A stretch of 16,703 nt of DNA from Verrucomicrobiota bacterium (GTDB taxonomy: Bacteria > Verrucomicrobiota > Verrucomicrobiia > Chthoniobacterales > UBA10450). The notes under the pieces are model-generated. The model had not been told where the DNA came from and did no database searches. It saw only the letters and a program-made list of their open reading frames with translations. Below, piece by piece: positions 6,573 through 16,703 of this stretch. The position numbers were made by a program, and so were the translations under genes. The stretch covers positions 1 through 16,703 of the forward strand of contig QHNF01000027.1 of the NCBI GenBank assembly GCA_003218345.1, given 5' to 3'. Within the stretch, counting starts at the first letter, position 1, and each line of letters begins with the position of its first letter.

Positions 6573-7694
6573 ATGGCGCAGAAGAAGGTGCTTATCACTG
6601 GCGGTGCGGGTTTCGTCGGATCACATCTGGCCGATGAATTGATCCAGTCTGGTTTTTCGGTTCGCGTGCTGGACAATTTGGCGCCGCAAGTGCATGGCAC
6701 CCGCGCGCGCCGACCGTCGTACCTGGCGCGCGAAGTGGAGTTCGTTCGCGGCGACGTTCGCGACCCCGATGCAATGACTCGCGCGCTGGAGAACATCGAC
6801 AGCGTTTTTCATTTTGCGGCGATGGTGGGCGTTGGTCAAAGCATGTACGAGATCTCCAATTACACGAGCAGTAACAGTTTGGGAACCGCCGTTCTGCTGG
6901 AAGCGCTCGCCAATCAGCCAATCGAACGGCTGATCGTCGCGTCGAGCATGAGCATCTATGGCGAAGGCCTCTACAGGACGCGCGATGGCTCGTCAGTCGA
7001 ACGGCGCGAACGCACTCTGGCGCAACTCCGGGCGCACGATTGGGAAGTGCGCGGCGCAGATGGCGAGCCGTTGATCCCGGTGCCAACTCCCGAATCAAAA
7101 TGCCCGGCCCTGCCATCAGTATATGCGATTTCCAAATACTATCAGGAGCGCCTTTGTATGACAGTCGGACGCGCTTATGGCATCGACACCGTCGCGTTGC
7201 GCTTCTTTAACATTTTCGGCACGCGCCAGGCCCTTTCTAATCCGTACACTGGTGTGCTGGCCATTTTTGCTTCGCGATTTTTGAATAATAATCCGCCGCT
7301 CATTAATGAGGACGGCAAACAGCGTCGCGATTTCGTTCACGTGCGCGACGTTGCCCAGGCCTGCAGGCTTGCATTGGAGGTGCAAGAAGCGGCGGGTGAA
7401 GTGTTCAACATCGGCAGCGGTCGCAATTACTCGGTTCTGGAGATCGCCGAGCAAATGGCGCGTGTCCTTGGAAAAGAGAACCTCGAGCCTGAGATCGTCG
7501 GGAAGTGCCGGGTGGGCGATATCCGTAATTGTTTCGCGGACATTTCGCGGGCGCGAAAAGTTCTTGGGTACGAGCCGCGAGTCAGCCTCGAAGAGGGTCT
7601 CACCGAATTAGCTGAATGGCTGGAAGGCCAGATCGCAGTCGATCGGGTTAGCGATGCGGTTCGTGAACTTAATTTGCGGGGTCTGGCAGTATGA
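6573..7694 (+). CDS. NAD-dependent epimerase/dehydratase, dTDP-L-rhamnose 4-epimerase-like
   Basis: This extended short-chain dehydrogenase acts on a nucleotide sugar. The 373-residue protein starts MAQKKVLITGG; the NAD-binding motif GGAGFVG is at 10-16, the active-site strand VASSMSIYG at 122-130, and the catalytic YxxxK is Tyr184/Lys188 in SVYAISKYYQE. About 50 residues separate SIYG from YAISK, more than in GalE-type enzymes. That insert, with GEGLYRTRDG and the PTPESK segment, plus RQALSNPYTGVLAIFASR further on, resembles WbiB/TloE-type dTDP-L-rhamnose 4-epimerases. The exact substrate is inference. The start at 6573 was chosen because the fold begins there; an upstream ATG at 6441 only adds unrelated sequence. 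It is the first gene of the operon and overlaps the next by ATGA. Confidence 0.88.
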   Translation: MAQKKVLITGGAGFVGSHLADELIQSGFSVRVLDNLAPQVHGTRARRPSYLAREVEFVRGDVRDPDAMTRALENIDSVFHFAAMVGVGQSMYEISNYTSSNSLGTAVLLEALANQPIERLIVASSMSIYGEGLYRTRDGSSVERRERTLAQLRAHDWEVRGADGEPLIPVPTPESKCPALPSVYAISKYYQERLCMTVGRAYGIDTVALRFFNIFGTRQALSNPYTGVLAIFASRFLNNNPPLINEDGKQRRDFVHVRDVAQACRLALEVQEAAGEVFNIGSGRNYSVLEIAEQMARVLGKENLEPEIVGKCRVGDIRNCFADISRARKVLGYEPRVSLEEGLTELAEWLEGQIAVDRVSDAVRELNLRGLAV

Positions 7695-9694
7695 AAAGCA
7701 GCGGCCGTCCTCTTTTGGGAATTCTCGAGTGGCTGCGCCCGGGAGAGGAGGAACGTGTCGAGCGTTTACTGGTTGATCTTAAAACAATCGGGGTGACGGA
7801 GCTGCGCACGGGCATTTCGTGGGCGGACTGGCACACTGAGGGCGGCGAGAAATGGTACGAGTGGTTGCTGCCGCGGCTCGCACGTGAAATCAATGTGCTT
7901 CCCTGTTTTCATTACACGCCACCGTGTCTCGGCATCGCGCCCAGCCAATGCTCGCCCCCGCGCAATCCAAAACAGTACGCCGATTTCCTCGACGTGTTCA
8001 TCACTCGGTTCGGCAAATTTTTTGAGTGGGTCGAGCTTTGGAACAAGCCGCGGAACCCGTTGGAATGGGACACCGCTCTCGATCCGCACTGGTTGATATT
8101 TTGTGAAATGGTCGGTGGCGCTGCGCATTGGGTGCGGGCGCGCGGCAAGAAAACCGTTCTCGGCGCAAGTGGGCCGATGGACGCGCAATGGGTGCGGTTG
8201 ATGTGCGAGCGCGGCGTCATGCAATATATCGACGCGGTCGGCATTCACGGTTTCCCTGGCACATTCGAATTCTGGTGGGACGGATGGAACGCGAAGATCG
8301 CCCGTGTCCGCAAAGTGCTGTTGCACCACCGCTGCAAGGCCGACATCTGGATCACCGAGACCGGCTACTCGACATGGCGACACGATGAGCGCGGCCAGAT
8401 CGCGGCGTTTATTGATGCGATGCACGCGCCAGCGGAGCGCGTTTATTGGTACGGCGCGCACGATCTCGGTGTGGAGCAGTTCCTGGGTGAGAACAAATTC
8501 TACAGTGATGAACGCGAACATCATTTCGGATTGCGTCGGAGCGATGGTTCGGAAAAATTGTTGTTCCGCTTGCTCGCGCAGGGCGGGACCGAAGCAGTGG
8601 AGAATTCCGCCTGGTTAGGCCGGAGGAACGCCCCGCCGCGCACCGGCAAACGTCCCGTAGTGATTACAGGCGGCTGCGGATTCATCGGTTGCAATCTGGC
8701 GCATGCCCTCTGTCTACGTGGACAACCGGTCGTCCTTTACGACAATCTCTCGCGCCCAGGCGTGGAACAAAATGCCGAATGGCTCCATGAGGACCACGGT
8801 GACCTGGTTCAACTGGAAGTCGCCGACACGCGCGACACCCAAACTCTGGCCCGGTGCGTCGAGCAGGCCGCGGCCATCTTTCACTTCGCTGCGCAGGTCG
8901 CCGTCACGAGCAGTCTCACTGCACCTGTCTACGACTTCGATGTCAATGCGCGCAGCACGCTCAATCTGCTCGAAATCCTGCGTGAATTACGCAATCCGCC
9001 GCCGATCATTTTCACGTCAACGAACAAAGTCTATGGCAGCCTCGACGACGTCGATCTTCGGCTGAACGCCGACCGGTACGAGCCGGTAGACGAAGAAACT
9101 CGCGCCTACGGGATCAGCGAAGATCAACGGCTCGATTTTTACAGTCCCTACGGCTGCTCCAAGGGCGCGGCCGATCAGTACATCCTCGATTACACGCGCA
9201 CGTTCGGCTTGCCCGCTGTCGTTTTCCGGATGAGTTGCATTTACGGGCTGCATCAATTCGGCACCGAAGACCAGGGGTGGGTCGCTCATTTTTTGATCAA
9301 CGCGCTGGAGCAACGCCCAATCACGATCTATGGCGACGGCAGACAGGTTCGCGATGTGTTGTTCGTCGATGACCTCGTTGACGCGCTGTTGCTGGCTCGC
9401 AAAAACATTCGAATGCTTTCGGGTCAAGTCTTCAACATCGGCGGAGGGGTGGGAAACACGACAAGCTTGCGCGAGCTAGTCGCCCTGATCGGCCAACTGA
9501 ATGAGAGCAAACCTCGCATTAGGCTGGCAAACTGGCGCCCGGGAGACCAGCGCTACTACGCCACGAACTTCTCAAATTTTCATACCGCCACCGGCTGGTC
9601 GCCGCGGGTCGGCAAACTCGAAGGCGTGCGTCGTCTTTATGATTGGCTGCGCAAATCTCACGCTGCGCGAGAAAGGTTGTTAGCCGCGGGATGA
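7691..9694 (+). CDS. bifunctional fusion: glycosidase-like TIM barrel + CDP-paratose/tyvelose-type epimerase
   Basis: The 667-residue two-domain protein joins two activities. Residues 1-310 look like a clan GH-A (beta-xylosidase-like) barrel: LRTGISWADWH, ELWNKPRN at 115-122, VGIHGFPGTFEFWWDGW, and WITETGYSTW containing the expected nucleophile Glu223. The usual NEP acid/base Glu is Lys119 here (codon AAG), so ordinary hydrolysis is doubtful. Residues about 322-660 form a complete extended SDR: GGCGFIG at 327-333 and YGCSKGAADQY with Tyr487/Lys491. The pattern FRMSCIYG..QFGTEDQGW is like CDP-paratose 2-epimerase/tyvelose epimerase. No signal peptide is present, so it is cytoplasmic, consistent with a biosynthetic role. 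The domains appear as one uninterrupted frame. The start overlaps the previous stop (ATGA). Confidence 0.87.
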   Translation: MKSSGRPLLGILEWLRPGEEERVERLLVDLKTIGVTELRTGISWADWHTEGGEKWYEWLLPRLAREINVLPCFHYTPPCLGIAPSQCSPPRNPKQYADFLDVFITRFGKFFEWVELWNKPRNPLEWDTALDPHWLIFCEMVGGAAHWVRARGKKTVLGASGPMDAQWVRLMCERGVMQYIDAVGIHGFPGTFEFWWDGWNAKIARVRKVLLHHRCKADIWITETGYSTWRHDERGQIAAFIDAMHAPAERVYWYGAHDLGVEQFLGENKFYSDEREHHFGLRRSDGSEKLLFRLLAQGGTEAVENSAWLGRRNAPPRTGKRPVVITGGCGFIGCNLAHALCLRGQPVVLYDNLSRPGVEQNAEWLHEDHGDLVQLEVADTRDTQTLARCVEQAAAIFHFAAQVAVTSSLTAPVYDFDVNARSTLNLLEILRELRNPPPIIFTSTNKVYGSLDDVDLRLNADRYEPVDEETRAYGISEDQRLDFYSPYGCSKGAADQYILDYTRTFGLPAVVFRMSCIYGLHQFGTEDQGWVAHFLINALEQRPITIYGDGRQVRDVLFVDDLVDALLLARKNIRMLSGQVFNIGGGVGNTTSLRELVALIGQLNESKPRIRLANWRPGDQRYYATNFSNFHTATGWSPRVGKLEGVRRLYDWLRKSHAARERLLAAG

Positions 9695-9702
9695 TAAAAG
9701 AT

Positions 9703-9807
9703 TGACGAAGCACGAATGACAAAATCCAAAGGAGTGACGAAGCACGAAACCAGAAGCAGTTCTTCGAATTCAAGCCACAATTCGAACTTAAGCCTTCGTC
9801 ATTCCTT
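9703..9807. repeat. block of small direct and inverted repeats inside the operon
   Basis: TGACGAAGCACGAA occurs twice exactly (9703-9716 and 9735-9748). AAGGAGTGACGAAG (9729-9742) is complementary to 9794-9807 over 14 bp with one G-T pair. TTCGAATTCAAGCC (9763-9776) recurs 18 bp later as TTCGAACTTAAGCC (9781-9794). The block fills the only gap in an otherwise overlapping operon. It looks like an eroded REP/MITE-type intergenic repeat; no transposase is present. Confidence 0.6.
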
Positions 9808-9823
9808 CGGCATCCAATCCGTC

Positions 9824-10771
9824 ATGCGGGCAGCCGTTATCACGTCGCCCCGCCGGATCGACATCGTAGAAGCGCCAATTCCAAAACCTGATTCAAGTCA
9901 GATTTTGGTTCGTGTGGACGGTTGCGGTGTCTGTGCGTCAAACGTTCCGCCATGGGAAGGCAAACCGTGGTTTACATATCCAATGCCGCCCGGCGCACTC
10001 GGCCACGAAGCGTGGGGCCGTATAGAGGAAGTCGGCAGTGCAGTTCGCGACTTTCAAAAAGCCGATCGCGTCGCCGTTTGCTCCACGCACGCATACGCTG
10101 ACTACGATGTATGCGATGTGTCGTCTGCAATAAAACTCCCTGAGGTTCTCGACGACGGGCCATTCCCCGGCGAACCCCTGGGCTGCGCGATGAATATTTT
10201 TCGCCGCAGCGACATCGGTAAGGATGACACCGTCGCGATCGTCGGCATCGGTTTTCTTGGCGCGTTGCTCACGCAACTGGCCAGCGCGACGGGCGCGCAC
10301 GTGATCGCGCTGGCCCGCCGCCGATTTGCTCTGGATCTGGCGAAAGAGATGGGAGCGGCGCAGCTTATAACTCTCGATGATCATGCAGTCGAGAACGTCA
10401 AAAACCTCACGCACGGCAAATTCTGCGACGTTGTTATCGAGTGCACGGGAAAACAATGGCCGCTCGATGTTGCCAGTGAGCTCACGCGCGAGCGCGGCCG
10501 CCTCGTTATTGCCGGTTATCACCAGGATGGACCGCGCAAGATTAACATGCAGCTTTGGAACTGGCGTGGACTCGACGTAGTCAATGCCCACGAGCGGGAT
10601 CCGCGAGTTTACGTCGACGGCATTCGACAAGCGGTGCGCGCGGTAGCGGCGGGACTGCTGAATCCTGCACCGCTCTACACGCATTTCTTTCCCCTAGAAC
10701 GGCTCGACGCCGCGTTGAGCATGGCGGCGCGACGCCCAGACGGTTTCATTAAGGCGGTGATCACAACATGA
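9824..10771 (+). CDS. zinc-type medium-chain alcohol dehydrogenase family oxidoreductase
   Basis: This 315-residue MDR-superfamily NAD(P)-dependent dehydrogenase probably oxidises or reduces a sugar or cyclitol hydroxyl. The catalytic domain has GCGVCASN (zinc ligand Cys37), LGHEAWG (His61-Glu62) and GEPLGCA (Glu117, possible third ligand). The Rossmann motif is VGIGFLG at 140-146. The four-Cys structural zinc lobe is absent, which shortens it below classical ADHs (about 340-350). The start at 9824 (MRAAVITSPRRIDIVEAP) matches the family N-terminus. An in-frame ATG at 9716 would add 36 Ser/Asn-rich residues encoded by the repeat block and is rejected. The gene ends in an ATGA overlap with the Gfo/Idh gene, so the two oxidoreductases are coupled. 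Substrate unknown. Confidence 0.87.
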   Translation: MRAAVITSPRRIDIVEAPIPKPDSSQILVRVDGCGVCASNVPPWEGKPWFTYPMPPGALGHEAWGRIEEVGSAVRDFQKADRVAVCSTHAYADYDVCDVSSAIKLPEVLDDGPFPGEPLGCAMNIFRRSDIGKDDTVAIVGIGFLGALLTQLASATGAHVIALARRRFALDLAKEMGAAQLITLDDHAVENVKNLTHGKFCDVVIECTGKQWPLDVASELTRERGRLVIAGYHQDGPRKINMQLWNWRGLDVVNAHERDPRVYVDGIRQAVRAVAAGLLNPAPLYTHFFPLERLDAALSMAARRPDGFIKAVITT

Positions 10772-11805
10772 ACACCGCCACTGCGTCATCGGCTCAATTC
10801 GCCGCGGCAATTGCGCCACGGCCGCGGCTTGGATTTCTGGGATTGGGGTGGATCGGTACACATCGGCTCGCGGCTATTGCGCGGGCCGGTGTGGCCGAAA
10901 TCGTGGCGATTGTCGATCCGATGGAGGACATGCTCGCCGCCGCGGCCCAGCACGCGCCTAACGCATTCCATTTTCGCGATTCGAACCAGCTTCTTGAGCG
11001 AGATCTTAATGGCATTGTGATCGCCACGCCGAGCGCGCAGCACGCCGGGCAATCCATCGCAGCCTTGAACCGCGGGCTGGCAGTTTTCTGCCAAAAACCG
11101 CTGGGACGCAACACGAGCGAAGTGTGCGAAGTGATTGACGCGGCCCGCTCGGCGAATCGTCTTCTCGGTGTCGATCTTTCGTATCGTTACACTGCGGGGC
11201 TGCAAAAAATCCGGCAGCTCGTCAGGGCAAATGAGCTCGGTGAGATTTTCGCTGTCGATCTTGTTTTTCATAATGCTTACGGTCCGCAAAAGTCTTGGTT
11301 TCACAGTCCGGCCCAGTCAGGCGGCGGTTGCGTTATCGATCTTGGAATTCATTTGGTCGACGCCGCGCTTTGGATTCTAGATCAGCCCATTGTCAACGTG
11401 AGCAGTCGTCTTTTCCACGAAGGCGAACGGATCGACCGATTGGAGCCCGTTTGTGAAGATTATGCTGCGGTTCGATTCGATCTCGCCAACGGCGCCGCGA
11501 TCAACCTGAATTGTTCATGGTATCTGCACGCCGGACGCGACGCCGTAATTGTGGCGTCATTTTACGGAACAAAAGGCGGCGCGGCTCTGCGTAACGTCAA
11601 CGGCTCGTTCTACGATTTTGTCGCCGAGCGTTTTACCGGCACAACGCGACAACTCTTGGCGGAACCGCCGGACGAATGGTTCGGCTACGCGGCAGTAGAA
11701 TGGGCGCGACGCCTCGCGATTGACGGCAACTTTGATCCTGAGATCGAAAGGATTATTGAGGTGGCGGCTGCGCTCGATCTAATTTATGAAAATGCAAACG
11801 CATAG
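10768..11805 (+). CDS. Gfo/Idh/MocA family oxidoreductase
   Basis: This 345-residue NAD(P)-dependent dehydrogenase belongs to the glucose-fructose oxidoreductase/inositol 2-dehydrogenase family. The N-terminal Rossmann fold has GLGWIG at 25-30 and an acidic strand end VAIVDP at 46-51. The family's EKP motif reads CQKPLG (Gln109-Lys110-Pro111): the catalytic Lys is kept, the Glu is not. The C-terminal substrate domain has GGGCVIDLGIHLVD (185-198) with Asp191 and His195 in the expected places. About 17 residues precede the usual family start. Some family members oxidise myo-inositol to scyllo-inosose, which is suggestive given the inositol phosphate synthase in the operon, but the substrate cannot be read from sequence. 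GGTGA at 10756-10760 is a possible ribosome site. Confidence 0.9.
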   Translation: MNTATASSAQFAAAIAPRPRLGFLGLGWIGTHRLAAIARAGVAEIVAIVDPMEDMLAAAAQHAPNAFHFRDSNQLLERDLNGIVIATPSAQHAGQSIAALNRGLAVFCQKPLGRNTSEVCEVIDAARSANRLLGVDLSYRYTAGLQKIRQLVRANELGEIFAVDLVFHNAYGPQKSWFHSPAQSGGGCVIDLGIHLVDAALWILDQPIVNVSSRLFHEGERIDRLEPVCEDYAAVRFDLANGAAINLNCSWYLHAGRDAVIVASFYGTKGGAALRNVNGSFYDFVAERFTGTTRQLLAEPPDEWFGYAAVEWARRLAIDGNFDPEIERIIEVAAALDLIYENANA

Positions 11806-12952
11806 CGCGGGTCCGCGCAAGATTCTGATGACTGTCGATCCAATCGGCGGTGTGTGGACCTATGCGCTCGAGCTGGCTCGCGCGCTGGAGCCGCACGGCG
11901 TCCAGATTGCGCTTGCCAGCATGGGTGCGCGTCCGACCCGCGAGCAATACAAGCAAGTCCTCGCGCGCAAAAACGTGCACCTGTTCGAAAGCGGTTACCG
12001 TCTCGAATGGATGGACGACGCTTGGGGCGACGTGGACGCTGCCGGCGATTGGCTCCTGCAAATTGCAGCGCGGGTTCGCCCTGATCTGATTCACCTCAAC
12101 GGCTACAGCCACGCTGTCCTTCGGTGGAATGCGCCTGCGCTGATAGTGGCGCACTCGTGCGTGTTGTCGTGGTGGGAGGCGGTTAAAAACGAGGAGGCGC
12201 CCCCGCGGTACGGCGAATATCGCGTGCGGGTCGCCACTGCTCTTGCGGCCGCAGATGCAGTTGTCGCACCGAGCGCCGCGATGCGCGATGCGTTGTCTTT
12301 TCATTACGGGCATGCCGATACGATCGTGATTCGCAATGCGGGCGACCCGCGCCTGTTTGCCCCCGGGGAAAAATCGCCAGTCGTTTTTGCCTGCGGTCGG
12401 ATTTGGGATGGGGCGAAAAACTTGCCGCTGGTCGACCGAATTGCGCAGCAAATTAAATGGCCGATCGCCTTTGCAGGTGATCGCCGGCATCCGGCGGGCT
12501 CGACAATCGCGGTTCAAAACGTTCGTTGTCTCGGAAAACTCTCGATGCCCGAAATGAGGCAGCAATTTGCTCGCGCTGCGATTTTCGTTTTGCCGGCGCG
12601 GTACGAGCCATTCGGGTTATCCGTGCTTGAGGCCGGGCTGAGCGGCTGCGCGTTGGTGCTGGGCGACATCTCAAGTTTGCGCGAAACCTGGCATGGAGCG
12701 GCTATTTTCGTCTCGCCTGACGACGCGAGCGGACTCGCAGACGCGCTCAACAATTTGATTGATAACCCGAAACGGCGACAAGATCTGAGCCGCCGCGCCC
12801 GCGCACGCGCGCTGGGATTTTCGCCATATCGAATGGCTAACGAATACCTGGCGATCTACAAAAGCTGTGCGGCTGAAGCGCGTGCTCCGAGCGTGATGGC
12901 AAATCAGGTCGCGCAGGGATCAACTTCCACTCTGGCGGAGGCGGTGGCATGA
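11786..12952 (+). CDS. GT4-family glycosyltransferase
   Basis: This 388-residue GT-B retaining glycosyltransferase transfers a sugar from an activated donor to a growing saccharide or lipid in the cytoplasm. The N-terminal domain starts RKILMTVDPIGGVWTYALEL, the GGV-type acceptor-side loop. The C-terminal domain has VFACGRIWDGAKNL (200-213) and the diagnostic EX7E motif Glu274-PFGLSVL-Glu282 within YEPFGLSVLEAGLSGCALV. A tail after about residue 365 is variable and Ala/Ser-rich. The start overlaps the previous gene by 20 nt; a second ATG at 11792 would reduce this to 14. There is no good Shine-Dalgarno at either, so coupling to the upstream gene is likely. Donor and acceptor are unknown. Confidence 0.9.
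   Translation: MKMQTHSAGPRKILMTVDPIGGVWTYALELARALEPHGVQIALASMGARPTREQYKQVLARKNVHLFESGYRLEWMDDAWGDVDAAGDWLLQIAARVRPDLIHLNGYSHAVLRWNAPALIVAHSCVLSWWEAVKNEEAPPRYGEYRVRVATALAAADAVVAPSAAMRDALSFHYGHADTIVIRNAGDPRLFAPGEKSPVVFACGRIWDGAKNLPLVDRIAQQIKWPIAFAGDRRHPAGSTIAVQNVRCLGKLSMPEMRQQFARAAIFVLPARYEPFGLSVLEAGLSGCALVLGDISSLRETWHGAAIFVSPDDASGLADALNNLIDNPKRRQDLSRRARARALGFSPYRMANEYLAIYKSCAAEARAPSVMANQVAQGSTSTLAEAVA
12937..12941 (+). promoter_or_regulatory. Shine-Dalgarno for the first CgeB-like gene
   Basis: GGAGG sits 7 nt before the ATG at 12949, inside the end of the GT4 gene. It supports that start and allows reinitiation at the ATGA overlap. Confidence 0.7.
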
Positions 12953-14043
12953 ACATCGTGATGTTCTATCACTCGCTCGTGTCCGATTGGAATCACGGCA
13001 ACGCCCATTTTCTGCGGGGCATCGCGATGGAATTCATCAAGCGCGGTCATCATCTGGAGATTTACGAACCGCAAAACGGGTGGAGCGTCTCGAACCTAAT
13101 CGCGACGCAGGGCGGCGAACCGCTCCGTGAGTTTCAAGCCCGTTTTCCGCTGTTAAGATCGAGGACCTACGCGATCGACACGTTCGACCTCGACCGCGCG
13201 CTCGATGACGTGGATCTCGTTCTGGTTCACGAATGGAACGATCCGGCGCTCGTGCGCCGCATCGGTAAGCATCGCGCGAAGACCGGCGGCGCGTACCATC
13301 TCTTTTTTCACGATACTCATCACCGCGCCGTGACCGCGCCGGAGCAAATGCGCAAGTACGATTTGTCACACTATGACGGCGTGCTCGCCTACGGTGATTT
13401 GTTGCGCGATGTCTATTGGCACTGCGGCTGGACTTGGCGCGCCTGGACATGGCGCGAAGCGGCCGACACAAACGTTTTTCGCGCGTCGCGTAACTGCCAT
13501 TTTGACGGCGATTTGGTCTGGATTGGTAACTGGGGTGACGACGAACGCACAGCCGAATTGCGCGAGTTCTTGATCGAGCCCGTCAAAGCGCTTCGGCTGC
13601 GCGCCAAAGTTTTCGGGGTGCGTTACCCGCAACACGCGCTCGAGATGTTGCGGGACGCTGGAATTTCCTACGGCGGTTGGCTGCCAAACTATCGTGTGCC
13701 GGATGTATTCGCCCGCTTTCGGCTTACGCTGCATGTGCCGCGTCGGCCTTATGTCGATCTGCTGCCTGGAATCCCGACGATTCGCCCGTTCGAGGCGCTC
13801 GCGTGCAGTATTCCGCTCGTCTGTTCCCCTTGGAACGACAGCGAAAAATTGTTTGAGCCGGGCCGCGATTTTTTGATCGCAAAGAACAGCGGTGAAATGA
13901 AACGGCATTTGCGCGCTCTGCTCAGCGACAAAAAAATGGCGCACGACTTGTCCGAGCACGGGTTGCAAACAATAAGGGCGCGGCACACCTGCGCCCATCG
14001 AGTGGACGAACTGATGTCGATCCTCGCGGAGGTGGACGGATGA
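12949..14043 (+). CDS. CgeB-like glycosyltransferase, paralog 1
   Basis: This 364-residue protein is of the CgeB / Glyco_trans_1_2 type (GT-B fold). Members are named after a Bacillus spore-coat maturation protein but are widespread in polysaccharide clusters. The N-terminal domain starts MNIVMFYHSLVSDWNHGNAH and includes KRGHHLEIYEP. The mid-region HLFFHDTHHR (117-126) aligns with the CDVDAP/YDIDTP segments of the next two proteins. The C-terminal nucleotide-sugar domain has RPFEALACSIPLVCSPW (279-295) and FEPGRDFLIAKN, the usual end motif. It is the most divergent of the three tandem paralogs and Trp-rich at 160-169 (GWTWRAWTWR). Both ends are ATGA overlaps. The sugar transferred is unknown. 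Confidence 0.83.
   Translation: MNIVMFYHSLVSDWNHGNAHFLRGIAMEFIKRGHHLEIYEPQNGWSVSNLIATQGGEPLREFQARFPLLRSRTYAIDTFDLDRALDDVDLVLVHEWNDPALVRRIGKHRAKTGGAYHLFFHDTHHRAVTAPEQMRKYDLSHYDGVLAYGDLLRDVYWHCGWTWRAWTWREAADTNVFRASRNCHFDGDLVWIGNWGDDERTAELREFLIEPVKALRLRAKVFGVRYPQHALEMLRDAGISYGGWLPNYRVPDVFARFRLTLHVPRRPYVDLLPGIPTIRPFEALACSIPLVCSPWNDSEKLFEPGRDFLIAKNSGEMKRHLRALLSDKKMAHDLSEHGLQTIRARHTCAHRVDELMSILAEVDG
14028..14032 (+). promoter_or_regulatory. Shine-Dalgarno for the second CgeB-like gene
   Basis: GGAGG sits 7 nt before the ATG at 14040, within the previous coding sequence, and fixes that start. Confidence 0.7.
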
Positions 14044-15113
14044 ATATCGCATTTTTCGTTTCAAGTTTACTCTCCGCATATTGGAATGGGGCCGCTACCT
14101 ATTACCGCGGGCTGATTAAAGCGCTGCACGATCGTGGGCATACAATTACGGTTTACGAGCCGGATGCGTACGATCGACAACATCATCGTGACATCGAGTC
14201 GCCGAGCTGGGCGCGCGTGATCGTTTATGACAACGAGGAGGACGCTGTGTTGCACGCGGTCGAGGCGGCGCGGCGGGACGCTGATCTGATCGTGAAAGCA
14301 AGCGGCATCGGTGTTTTCGATACGCTGCTCGAAGCGGCCGTGCTCGATCTCAAGCGCCCGCGCAATTGGGTCGCGTTTTGCGACGTTGATGCTCCAGCCA
14401 CACTCGAGCGGGTGGAGAACGATTCCGAGGATCCGTTTCGCGAGTTAATTCCGCGTTACGACTTCATCTTCACTTACGGCGGAGGCTCACCGGTAGTGCG
14501 CGGCTATGAGGCGCTGGGGGCGCGGTTATGCGTACCGATTTACAATGGGCTCGATCCGCAGACGCATCATCCGGTCCGGCCGGAAGCACGGTTCGAAGCC
14601 GATCTCGGTTTTTTGGGTCACCGTTTGCCCGACCGCGAAGCGCGTGTTGAAGAATTTTTCCTGAACGCAGCCGAGCAACTGCAAGATCGACAATTTTTGC
14701 TGGGCGGCATCGGCTGGGACACCAAGCCGCTGCCGCAGAACGTCAGAAATCTCGGGCACGTTTACACGGCCGATCACAATGCGTTCAACTGCACGCCGCG
14801 CGCGGTGTTGAATATTTCGCGCGCGAGCATGGCTCGGTACGGATTTTCACCGGCGACGCGAGTGTTCGAGGCCGCGGGCGCCGCGGCCTGTCTCATTACA
14901 GATTCCTGGGTCGGCATTGAAGAATTTTTCGAGCCCGACGGGGAGATTCTCGTCGCGCGCAATGGCGATGAAGTAGCGGCGCATGTTGTCGATCTGACGG
15001 CGGAGCGCGCGAACGAGATTGGCCAGGCGGCATATCGCCATGTTCTGGCGCAGCACACTTATGCCCATCGCGCCGCGCAATTTGACGAAATTTTGGAGGG
15101 CGCACTCGTATGA
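14040..15113 (+). CDS. CgeB-like glycosyltransferase, paralog 2
   Basis: This 357-residue GT-B protein of the CgeB family begins MNIAFFVSSLLSAYWNGAAT followed by RGLIKALHDRGHTITVYEP, matching both neighbours. The segment AFCDVDAPATLE (112-123) carries a DVD triad and corresponds to [10 protein letters not shown] in the third paralog. The C-terminal domain has LNISRASMARYGFSPATR (257-274) then VFEAAGAAACLITDSW and FFEPDGEILVARN. It is clearly closest to the third paralog (shared RA-M-R-GFSP-R-FEAA pattern), suggesting a duplication with divergence to a new acceptor or donor. ATGA overlaps at both ends indicate equal, coupled expression of the three enzymes. Substrate unknown; no membrane segment or signal peptide. 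Confidence 0.83.
   Translation: MNIAFFVSSLLSAYWNGAATYYRGLIKALHDRGHTITVYEPDAYDRQHHRDIESPSWARVIVYDNEEDAVLHAVEAARRDADLIVKASGIGVFDTLLEAAVLDLKRPRNWVAFCDVDAPATLERVENDSEDPFRELIPRYDFIFTYGGGSPVVRGYEALGARLCVPIYNGLDPQTHHPVRPEARFEADLGFLGHRLPDREARVEEFFLNAAEQLQDRQFLLGGIGWDTKPLPQNVRNLGHVYTADHNAFNCTPRAVLNISRASMARYGFSPATRVFEAAGAAACLITDSWVGIEEFFEPDGEILVARNGDEVAAHVVDLTAERANEIGQAAYRHVLAQHTYAHRAAQFDEILEGALV
15095..15099 (+). promoter_or_regulatory. Shine-Dalgarno for the third CgeB-like gene
   Basis: GGAGG sits 10 nt before the ATG at 15110, inside the end of the preceding gene. Confidence 0.65.
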
Positions 15114-16231
15114 AAGTTGTGATGCTCGGTCTTTCGATTACGTCATCGTGGGGAAACGGACACGCAACCACGTATCGCAGCCTGATGCGCGAGCTGTTCC
15201 GGCGCGGACACGAAGTCCTTTTTCTCGAGCGCGATCAGCCGTGGTATGCAGCCAATCGCGACCTGCCACGGCCTCCATTCGGCCGCACCGAGCTGTATCG
15301 GAGCGTGAGCCAATTGAAATCGCGATTCAGTGATGAAGTGGCAGATGCCGATTGCGTAATTGTCGGCTCGTTCATTCCCGAAGGCGTCACCGTGGGCCAA
15401 TGGGTAACGCGGATCGCGAGCGGGGTGACAGCATTTTACGATATCGACACACCGATAACGCTTGAAAAAATCGGGCGCGACCAGTGCGATTATCTTTCAG
15501 CCGATCTCATCGCCCATTACGATCTTTACCTGTCCTTCACCGGCGGGCCTACACTCGATTTGATCGAAACGGAATACGGATCGCCGATGGCGCGCGCGTT
15601 ATACTGTTCTGTCGATCCCACGTTGTATTTTCCGGACAAGCGGAGGACAAAATGGAGCCTCGGTTATCTCGGCACATTTAGCGAAGATCGACAACCGGTG
15701 CTCAATGCGCTTTTGGTCGCGCCGGCAACAATGTGGCCGGCCGGCCGATTCGTGGTGGCCGGTCCGCAGTATCCGCAAGCCATCCGCTGGCCGACGAACG
15801 TCAGACGTATCGTCCATCTGAATCCCACCGAGCACCGCACGTTCTATAACTCGCAGCGTTTCACATTGAACATCACACGCGCGGCCATGGTGCGCGCCGG
15901 TTTTTCGCCAAGCGTACGCTTGTTCGAGGCGGCCGCGTGCGGCACGCCGATTCTCACCGATCAATGGCCCGGCCTGAACACCTTCTTTACACCCGATGAA
16001 GAAATTCTGGTCGTGCAAAGCGCGGCCGAAGTGCTGGAGATTGTACGGGAGCTGCCCGAGGACATCGCTCACAAGATCGGCGCACGCGCGCGCGATCGTG
16101 TTTTGTCGGAGCACACAGCGTTTCATCGTGCACTCGAACTCGAATCGTTCATCGCCGCCGCGCGAGAATCGGCGATGACGACACCACAAATTCCTGGCAT
16201 GGACTTTCAGCGGGCGGAGGTCGCGCTATGA
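15110..16231 (+). CDS. CgeB-like glycosyltransferase, paralog 3
   Basis: This 373-residue GT-B protein of the CgeB family has the N-terminus [20 protein letters not shown] with [16 protein letters not shown]. The segment [14 protein letters not shown] (108-121) is the counterpart of CDVDAP in paralog 2. The C-terminal nucleotide-sugar domain has [18 protein letters not shown] (253-270), [18 protein letters not shown] and [12 protein letters not shown] tail of about 20 residues after FIAAARES is probably flexible. It sits between paralog 2 and the inositol-phosphate synthase with ATGA overlaps at both ends. As with the other paralogs, the family is clear and the substrate is not. Confidence 0.83.
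16216..16220 (+). promoter_or_regulatory. Shine-Dalgarno for the inositol-phosphate synthase
   Basis: GGAGG sits 7 nt before the ATG at 16228 and supports that start, which overlaps the previous stop. Confidence 0.7.
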
Positions 16232-16703
16232 AGAGAAATGGCTCAGGCAAAATTCGCGTCGGCATTATCGGCGTTGGGAATTGCGCGTCGTCCCTCGTGC
16301 AGGGCGTGCAGTTTTATCGAAACGCGCGCCAGGGCGAATTCGTGCCTGGATTGATGCATGCCGATCTTGGCGGTTATCACGTGCGCGATATCGAGTTCAC
16401 CGCCGCGTTCGACATCAATGTGACAAAAGTCGGACGCAAGCTGAGCGAAGCTATTTTCGCTGAACCAAACAACACGCTCCGATTCGCTGAGGTGCCGCGG
16501 CTCGGACTCAAAGTGCATCGGGGTATGACGCACGACGGGCTCGGCAAATATCTCAAGCAGGTCATCCAGAAAGCGCCGGGCTCGACCGACGACATCGTCG
16601 GCATCCTGAAAAAAACGCACACCGACGTGGTTGTATCGTATTTGCCGGTCGGTTCCGAGATGGCGACCAAGTGGTACGTTGAGCAAATCCTCGAAGCCGG
16701 CTG
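16228..16703 (+). CDS. ino1: myo-inositol-1-phosphate synthase (inositol-3-phosphate synthase), 3'-truncated
   Basis: This enzyme converts D-glucose 6-phosphate to 1D-myo-inositol 3-phosphate using bound NAD, the first step of inositol synthesis. The frame is open from the ATG to the window edge (158 codons), so the C-terminal half is missing. The visible part is a close match to the short actinobacterial/archaeal type. It shows [20 protein letters not shown] with the NAD motif [37 protein letters not shown], and [18 protein letters not shown]. Eukaryotic-type enzymes are longer and lack this wording. The start follows a GGAGG site and overlaps the previous stop (ATGA), placing it in the glycosyltransferase operon. 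In actinobacteria this enzyme feeds phosphatidylinositol and mycothiol; here it may supply a cyclitol to the pathway encoded upstream (inference). Confidence 0.94.

Follow-up and report, generated by a model that had tools for sequence, protein, structure and literature searches.

What do the sugar-handling genes crowded at one end of a Verrucomicrobiota contig make? The contig (GenBank assembly GCA_003218345.1, QHNF01000027.1; G000:C408 where genomes, contigs and loci are numbered G, C and L) is the window analysed here, all 16,703 nucleotides of it. The genome is in 475 contigs, 81% complete and evidently metagenome-assembled, and because the window is the whole contig, its 3′ limit is an assembly end. 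Nine plus-strand genes lie between position 6573 and that end, where the last of them, encoding a myo-inositol-phosphate synthase (INO1), is truncated. We give an even chance to the reading that this locus, with the genes that follow it, encodes soluble cytoplasmic enzymes that make a short O-methylated hetero-oligosaccharide. The product would probably be a stress protectant, because in Alphaproteobacteria a promoter of the type used by the general stress sigma factor often precedes the inositol unit of the locus.

The first-pass annotation had described the nine genes as locked together in one coupled operon. This is true of seven of the eight junctions in the window, which overlap (six by 4 bases and one by 20), but not of the junction between the second epimerase and the alcohol dehydrogenase, where a gap of 129 bases is found. 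The families that it named (Epimerase, ADH_zinc, GFO_IDH_MocA, GT4, Glyco_trans_1_2 three times, and INO1) were recovered by profile searches, and its proposed neighbourhood search both showed the block to be conserved and located the missing 3′ genes on another contig of the same genome. This contig, C104, of 3958 bases, opens within the gene for a further CgeB-like transferase, the fourth (CgD), of which the part corresponding to residue 164 of the orthologue onwards is present. Genes for a nucleotidyltransferase (NTPt), a methyltransferase (MT), a glycosidase-like protein (GHx) and a histidine phosphatase (HisP) follow. The methyltransferase passes the family TIGR04290 (386.9 bits against a cut-off of 300). 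The order CgD-NTPt-MT-GHx-HisP is also seen 3′ of INO1 in relatives, and it is from this synteny that we infer the adjacency of C408 and C104, which are unjoined in the assembly. Since a methyltransferase and a permuted glycosidase lay beyond the window, the operon is larger than nine genes. The GHx gene on C104 (locus L034, 739-1664) is broken over two frames, which may reflect an assembly error or a decaying gene.

The same gene set recurs, in variants, across relatives and several phyla, which favours the proposed pathway; given this conservation, the nine genes are no chance array. Its occurrence is sporadic. Among 83 genomes of the family, 14 have a match to the second CgeB-like transferase (CgB), at 63% identity or more in 11 of them (our own genome included), and 13 have the methyltransferase above cut-off; a phylum-wide sample of 288 genomes contained 2 with it, again including our own. 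The whole span from the first epimerase (epi1), which heads the block in relatives, to HisP is complete on four family contigs (in G080, G035, G029 and G042, the last without the gene for the fused second epimerase); the remaining family loci retrieved are truncated by the ends of their contigs or contain fewer of the genes. With the methyltransferase as bait, named genomes yielded at least 575 encoding stretches, and the best 80 were kept as loci of 3 to 21 kb each, so that the set leans towards close relatives and gene absences in it are soft. By their record titles, 60 of these loci are from Pseudomonadota, 9 from Verrucomicrobiota, 6 from Acidobacteriota and 4 from other phyla, with 1 unassigned, and many are metagenome bins. 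Four (L050, L054, L058 and L069) coincide with contigs already among the family loci, none of them double-counted in the set of 50 loci used below. Variants of the gene set are found on plasmids of Azospirillum, Roseomonas, Bradyrhizobium and Sinorhizobium.

Which of these genes belong together can be read from how often each accompanies the methyltransferase, which as bait is in all 80 loci. GHx is found in 77, HisP in 62, INO1 in 59, the third CgeB-like transferase (CgC) in 56, NTPt in 54, CgD and CgB in 52 each, the first CgeB-like transferase (CgA) in 51, the GT4 glycosyltransferase in 48, epi1 in 40, the second epimerase (epi2) in 36, a B12-radical-SAM enzyme in 25, a UDP-glucuronate decarboxylase-like protein (UXS) in 21, the alcohol dehydrogenase (ADH) in 19 and the Gfo/Idh/MocA oxidoreductase (GFO) in 16. 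CgD and NTPt travel together (both in 52 loci, neither in 26, NTPt alone in 2). A phosphopentomutase gene (L049 19679-20884) adjoins the NTPt-MT-GHx unit in 6 of the 80 loci, a hint that NTPt may activate a pentose-1-phosphate. A core emerges that consists of two epimerases, the GT4, three CgeB-like transferases, the methyltransferase and usually a GH39-like glycosidase, plus either the ADH or the B12-radical-SAM enzyme.

The inositol unit is separable from this core, and optional. In a sample less biased than the 80, namely 190 alphaproteobacterial genomes, all of one class, centred on Phenylobacterium deserti (G368, picked for its cluster), the methyltransferase is present in 10 genomes and an INO1 match (E 1e-60) in 15, and the two coincide in 3 including G368, that is, in 2 of the 9 methyltransferase genomes when G368 is set aside. 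Five of the seven methyltransferase genomes without INO1 have the core with the radical-SAM enzyme, one has a partial core, and one has only CgD-NTPt-MT-GHx and accessory genes. Individual loci agree: the core occurs with no INO1 in the locus alongside the ADH in L138 and alongside the radical-SAM enzyme in L131-L134 and L136. The dehydrogenases, therefore, need not act on inositol. Thus, of the earlier proposal of a small defined glycoconjugate, perhaps with an inositol or inosose core, the small defined product remains plausible, but the core finds no support in the form proposed, as INO1 belongs to a separable unit; an inosose core is likewise weakened by the separation of INO1 and the ADH or radical-SAM step between loci.

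The INO1 gene itself (16228..16703, N-terminal part) matches TIGR03450 at E 7.2e-53 with 180 bits over positions 1-149 of 355, and its full-length orthologue in L023 scores 516.5 bits, below the equivalog cut-off of 638. An INO1 match is present in 73 of the 83 family genomes, of which 52 score 409-449 bits and 10 score 517-554 bits (the cluster type), the others being partial; the remaining genomes have none. INO1 was accordingly rejected as a marker of the cluster. Both types are found in full in G042 and G080, so the cluster INO1 is a separate copy there. Three genomes (G032 on C215, G036 on C171, and G037), with assemblies 66-92% complete, carry a cluster-type INO1 although CgB finds no full match there; a remnant of CgB adjoins INO1 in G037 (L033 3862-5578). 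This suggests that in these genomes INO1 outlasted the remainder of the operon.

If the dehydrogenases need not act on inositol, what could they do? The ADH is a Zn-type alcohol dehydrogenase (9824..10771; Pfam ADH_zinc) whose open reading frame (ORF) opens at 9716 and whose conserved start is at 9824, and the GFO (10768..11805; Pfam GFO_IDH_MocA) is an optional partner of it. The closest NCBIfam model to the ADH is scyllo-inosose 3-dehydrogenase, at 95 bits against a cut-off of 450, and the GFO scores 105 bits against 355 for an inositol-dehydrogenase model. An obligate ADH and GFO pair was rejected (19 and 16 of the 80 loci, respectively): the GFO is present in the window's genus (L023 and L030) and was not found in five family loci that have the ADH (L018, L020, L022, L026 and L028). 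Another pattern links the ADH to the radical-SAM enzyme, for which a sister locus passes TIGR04295 (B12_rSAM_oligo) with 708 bits against a cut-off of 400. The two are found together in none of the 80 loci. Among the 36 loci that have epi1, GT4 and CgA, 20 have a TIGR04295-type enzyme, 13 the ADH (12 with the GFO) and 3 neither. An enlarged set of 50 loci, made up of these 36, the window, six other loci, and L131-L134, L136, L138 and L139, gives 27, 20 and 3, again with none having both; epi1 falls outside the stretch in L132-L134, and L135 and L137, which have neither gene, were excluded. No tblastn match to the TIGR04295 enzyme was obtained in the window or the scanned family loci, and the ADH is present wherever that part is in view. 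This exclusivity has a Fisher p of 3.8e-11, relatedness being ignored, and in a quick tree of CgA and CgB (43 rows) the starred branches require at least three changes of each label. We infer that the ADH route and the radical-SAM enzyme do equivalent chemistry; such a likely functional swap, if true, would give a handle on the function of TIGR04295.

A second possible replacement concerns the glycosidase. The gene at 7691-9694 encodes a fusion of a GH39-like (PslG-like) domain of ordinary strand order (GHw, 7691..8644) with epi2 (8645..9694), which resembles CDP-tyvelose/paratose 2-epimerases (phmmer E 6.2e-81 to 9rl0 and 6.7e-79 to 1orr). GHw and GHx align as two swapped pieces (GHx 3-192 with GHw 112-297, and GHx 191-294 with GHw 3-108); relative to the domain fused to epi2, GHx is circularly permuted. 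Pfam recognises neither, with no match for GHw and only 17.2 bits against a cut-off of 21 for GHx (PF11790). When GHx is searched against PslG in its native order, the match has an E of 0.031 and covers part of the barrel, whereas the permuted order gives 1.8e-7 over the whole barrel. GHw is identified as a glycosidase domain by its homology to GHx, which in turn, once its order is permuted, links it to PslG. The AlphaFold model of GHx (AF2; pLDDT 91) has eight strands in barrel order, a (beta/alpha)8 fold, and its residues 1-195 superpose on PslG 156-356 at 2.2 A over 175 residues (VIA-align). By Z score, PslG (12.3) ranks only 24th, behind GH20 and other barrels, of which the top one reaches 13.8 at 3.6 A and the others 3.5 A or more, and Foldseek returns weak, mixed barrels, so that the relation to PslG comes from VIA-align and the permuted query.

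Both catalytic Glu motifs of a GH39/PslG-like glycosidase are kept in all 69 GHx copies read (of the 77, 8 with frame breaks or of unsuitable length were set aside), whereas the window's GHw lacks the acid/base Glu. In six genomes that also have GHx, GHw is short of one Glu: the acid/base residue is Lys in the window, L018, L022, L023 and L028, and the nucleophile is Ala in L087. L029 also has Lys at the acid/base position. The resulting NKP is found in all six Chthoniobacterales GHw copies read; L024 has another ordinary-order relative, with both Glu present. Where GHw comes from loci with only the core (L131, L134, L136 and L138), both Glu are present in 4 of 4 full copies, and a GHx search of those genomes finds as its best matches, at 34-40% identity, these same GHw regions. 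If true, nature here offers an example in which a circularly permuted glycosidase has taken the place of its ordinary-order homologue, and in which a catalytic Glu is lost where both persist.

Regulation offers a hint about when the pathway is used. The pattern GGAAC-N15..18-CGTT, which we take to be that of EcfG-type promoters, was sought in 63 loci regarded as belonging to Alphaproteobacteria (4 plasmids and, judged by title, 59 of the 80) within 300 bases upstream of leaders, defined as cluster genes with no same-strand cluster gene within 150 bases upstream, unlabelled genes being ignored. It precedes 32 of 140 leaders, in 26 of the 63 loci, against 0.82 in base shuffles, and eight altered patterns gave 0, 2, 6, 0, 2, 0, 2 and 1. 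The sites stand before 22 of 53 INO1 leaders, 6 of 31 epi1 leaders, 3 of 4 CgD leaders, 1 of 13 ADH leaders and none of 39 others, and L135, a locus without INO1, has one 34 bases upstream of its CgD match. The scanned loci span at least four orders, with related loci, chiefly those of Microvirga (8 loci), being non-independent. Recurrent neighbours in Microvirga resemble the PrkA-YeaH-SpoVR stress trio (names assigned by eye). Ten of the 80 loci, mostly from Mesorhizobium, have a gene for an ECF sigma factor near the cluster (L065, L094, L104, L105, L110, L111, L118, L124, L125 and L127; the one that was scanned proved to be a sigma-70 ECF protein).

The remaining enzymes would assemble the glycan. 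Epi1 (6573..7694) is an extended-SDR nucleotide-sugar epimerase (Pfam Epimerase E 1.7e-53; best NCBIfam galE, below cut-off), and its closest solved chain is the UDP-glucose 4-epimerase 4zrm. The GT4 (11786..12952; Glyco_transf_4 / Glyco_trans_1_4) is followed by the CgeB-like CgA (12949..14043), CgB (14040..15113) and CgC (15110..16231), which match Glyco_trans_1_2 at E 3.3e-35, 7.7e-39 and 2.7e-39, respectively. The AlphaFold model of CgB (pLDDT 93.7) has ManT as its top Foldseek match, with PglA, BshA and MshA, likewise GT-B enzymes, also near, at about 15% identity. As for export, unlabelled ORFs of at least 150 residues with at least four predicted membrane segments were sought within the cluster span in the 66 loci with at least six core genes, and only two loci had one; as controls for this hydropathy scan, it gave 6 segments for an ABC permease and 12 for CyoB, and core proteins had at most one. 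Thus, the earlier observation that no polymer-export genes are visible extends beyond the window: in 64 of 66 loci, no unlabelled candidate for a flippase, polymerase or ABC exporter lies within the operon span.

Taken in the order that we propose, epi1 and epi2 would shape nucleotide-sugar donors, the GT4 and CgeB-like enzymes would add sugars singly, and the ADH (with the GFO where present), or elsewhere the B12-radical-SAM enzyme, would change a single position, which in the simplest case is a stereocentre. Capping or decoration of the chain may then fall to the TIGR04290 methyltransferase, and its trimming or recycling to the PslG-like glycosidase. In the window's lineage, this core is joined to a second unit, in which INO1 and HisP could supply myo-inositol as a building block, while NTPt and CgD would attach one further sugar. 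More tentatively, and with clearly more doubt than for the locus itself, one may imagine a class of stress-induced cytosolic O-methylated inositol hetero-oligosaccharides in many soil bacteria, a counterpart of the galactosyl cyclitols of plants, made by stepwise CgeB-type transferases with interchangeable redox and B12-radical-SAM remodelling and recycled by a permuted glycosidase that replaced its ordinary-order homologue. If our main reading of the locus is right, soil, rhizosphere and skin bacteria, among them the symbionts Sinorhizobium and Mesorhizobium, would make a soluble glycan that has gone unrecognised and that is tied to the general stress response.

Several observations weigh against a soluble, stress-protective oligosaccharide. 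EcfG sites are biased to INO1 and CgD leaders over those of epi1, and none stands before the first gene in L131 and L136, core-only loci in which that gene is in view (it is out of view in L132-L134 and L137), so that control of the core by EcfG is unsupported. INO1 is absent from many core-bearing loci, and inositol may serve some other purpose. Nor is the glycosidase present everywhere: no GHx-like gene follows the methyltransferase in L052 or L117 (L106 stops at a contig edge), and a GHx search of 12 genomes at E 1e-5 gave no match in G440, which has the methyltransferase and INO1, or in G506. The fold match of CgB is a generic GT-B one, which tells of the predicted fold and not of a substrate. 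Finally, the product could leave the cell through an exporter whose gene lies elsewhere in the genome. This last point leads to the rival that we regard as a possible but doubtful explanation, a cell-surface glycan or glycolipid (a decoration of lipopolysaccharide, capsule or membrane lipid) with its export machinery elsewhere, which is near the glycolipid of the first-pass annotation. CgeB-like and GT4 families serve surface glycans in other systems; PslG, the nearest known relative of GHx, belongs to the Psl operon of Pseudomonas, an exported-polysaccharide system; and genes like the Sinorhizobium ones annotated as F420-type or pyruvyl-transferase are found in 6 of the 80 loci. Yet no initiating sugar-phosphate transferase was recognised among the recurrent families, several of which were labelled by eye only, and polytopic proteins are scarce within the span.

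An inositol-based pseudosugar or aminoglycoside-like secondary metabolite, reached via inosose, would account for INO1 standing alongside an inosose-dehydrogenase-like ADH and an inositol-dehydrogenase-like GFO, and for the B12-radical-SAM enzyme of sister loci, but we think it improbable, as both scores are far below the inositol-enzyme cut-offs, the ADH and the radical-SAM enzyme are found without INO1 in the locus, and no aminotransferase was recognised among the recurrent families (no dedicated search was made). Glycosylation of a protein, perhaps of spore-coat type, is suggested by the family name, CgeB being a protein of the Bacillus spore crust; this seems to us very unlikely, given that no candidate acceptor protein was recognised among the families present in at least five loci and that three or four transferases with a methyltransferase and a glycosidase suit a free oligosaccharide equally well.

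Other features of the window and of the 80 loci are quickly told. At the far end of the contig (2-1043) lie an ORF resembling sigma-70, truncated by the contig start, and an ORF downstream of it, with no relation to the operon seen, and a scan of the window for promoters and terminators gave counts equal to those of shuffles. A protein of about 580 residues is encoded beside the cluster in 18 of the 80 loci (L046 28339-30087; L078 11802-13562); searched at E 1e-10, the copy in L078 matches no NCBIfam model.

How does this locus compare with what has been described? It was called uncharacterised, and the open-access literature agrees: we found no paper on the locus, none combining CgeB with inositol, none with TIGR04290 or Rta_06860, and, for TIGR04295, none among the matches listed. 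In one paper with SMb2022-2024 tags, the passage concerns a neighbouring ABC gene (PMC12542648), and a passage of an Ensifer aridi paper has no cluster gene (PMC8877191). Annotators had nevertheless noticed the neighbourhood, as the names of two hypothetical equivalogs with descriptions that give no function, TIGR04290 (meth_Rta_06860) and TIGR04295 (B12_rSAM_oligo), attest, and the word "oligo" in the latter suggests, from the name alone, that curators already suspected an oligosaccharide locus. Compared with TIGR04295 loci, the window's lineage has the ADH and GFO instead, plus INO1, HisP, CgD, NTPt and the glycosidase-epimerase fusion. Epi2 is close to solved CDP-tyvelose 2-epimerases (RfbE/TyvE; E 6e-81) but is here fused to a glycosidase domain, and GHx, unlike PslG, is circularly permuted and has a methyltransferase as its neighbour in a cluster where polytopic proteins are rare. 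The mycothiol pathway (INO1, MshA-D) shares an INO1 of the same model family, and some loci add a second GT4 and PIG-L-like and GNAT-like proteins (labelled by eye, with no NCBIfam hit), which were not seen in the window or eight other scanned loci of its family; the GT4, in contrast, reaches only 40 bits against 462.5 for the MshA model TIGR03449, too low for an MshA. A further parallel is the methylmannose polysaccharide (MMP) cluster of mycobacteria, which, in the passage describing it, brings together a glycosyltransferase, methyltransferases and a recycling endo-hydrolase (MeT1, MmpH, pMeT3 and ManT) for a methylated glycan (PMC9883506). By analogy, the locus could work like the MMP system, a likeness that lies in the gene set and in ManT being the top fold match of CgB rather than in sequence-family membership. 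As far as that passage goes, the MMP system has four genes and one sugar, whereas here four or five transferases, several donors, and inositol and redox enzymes are brought together.

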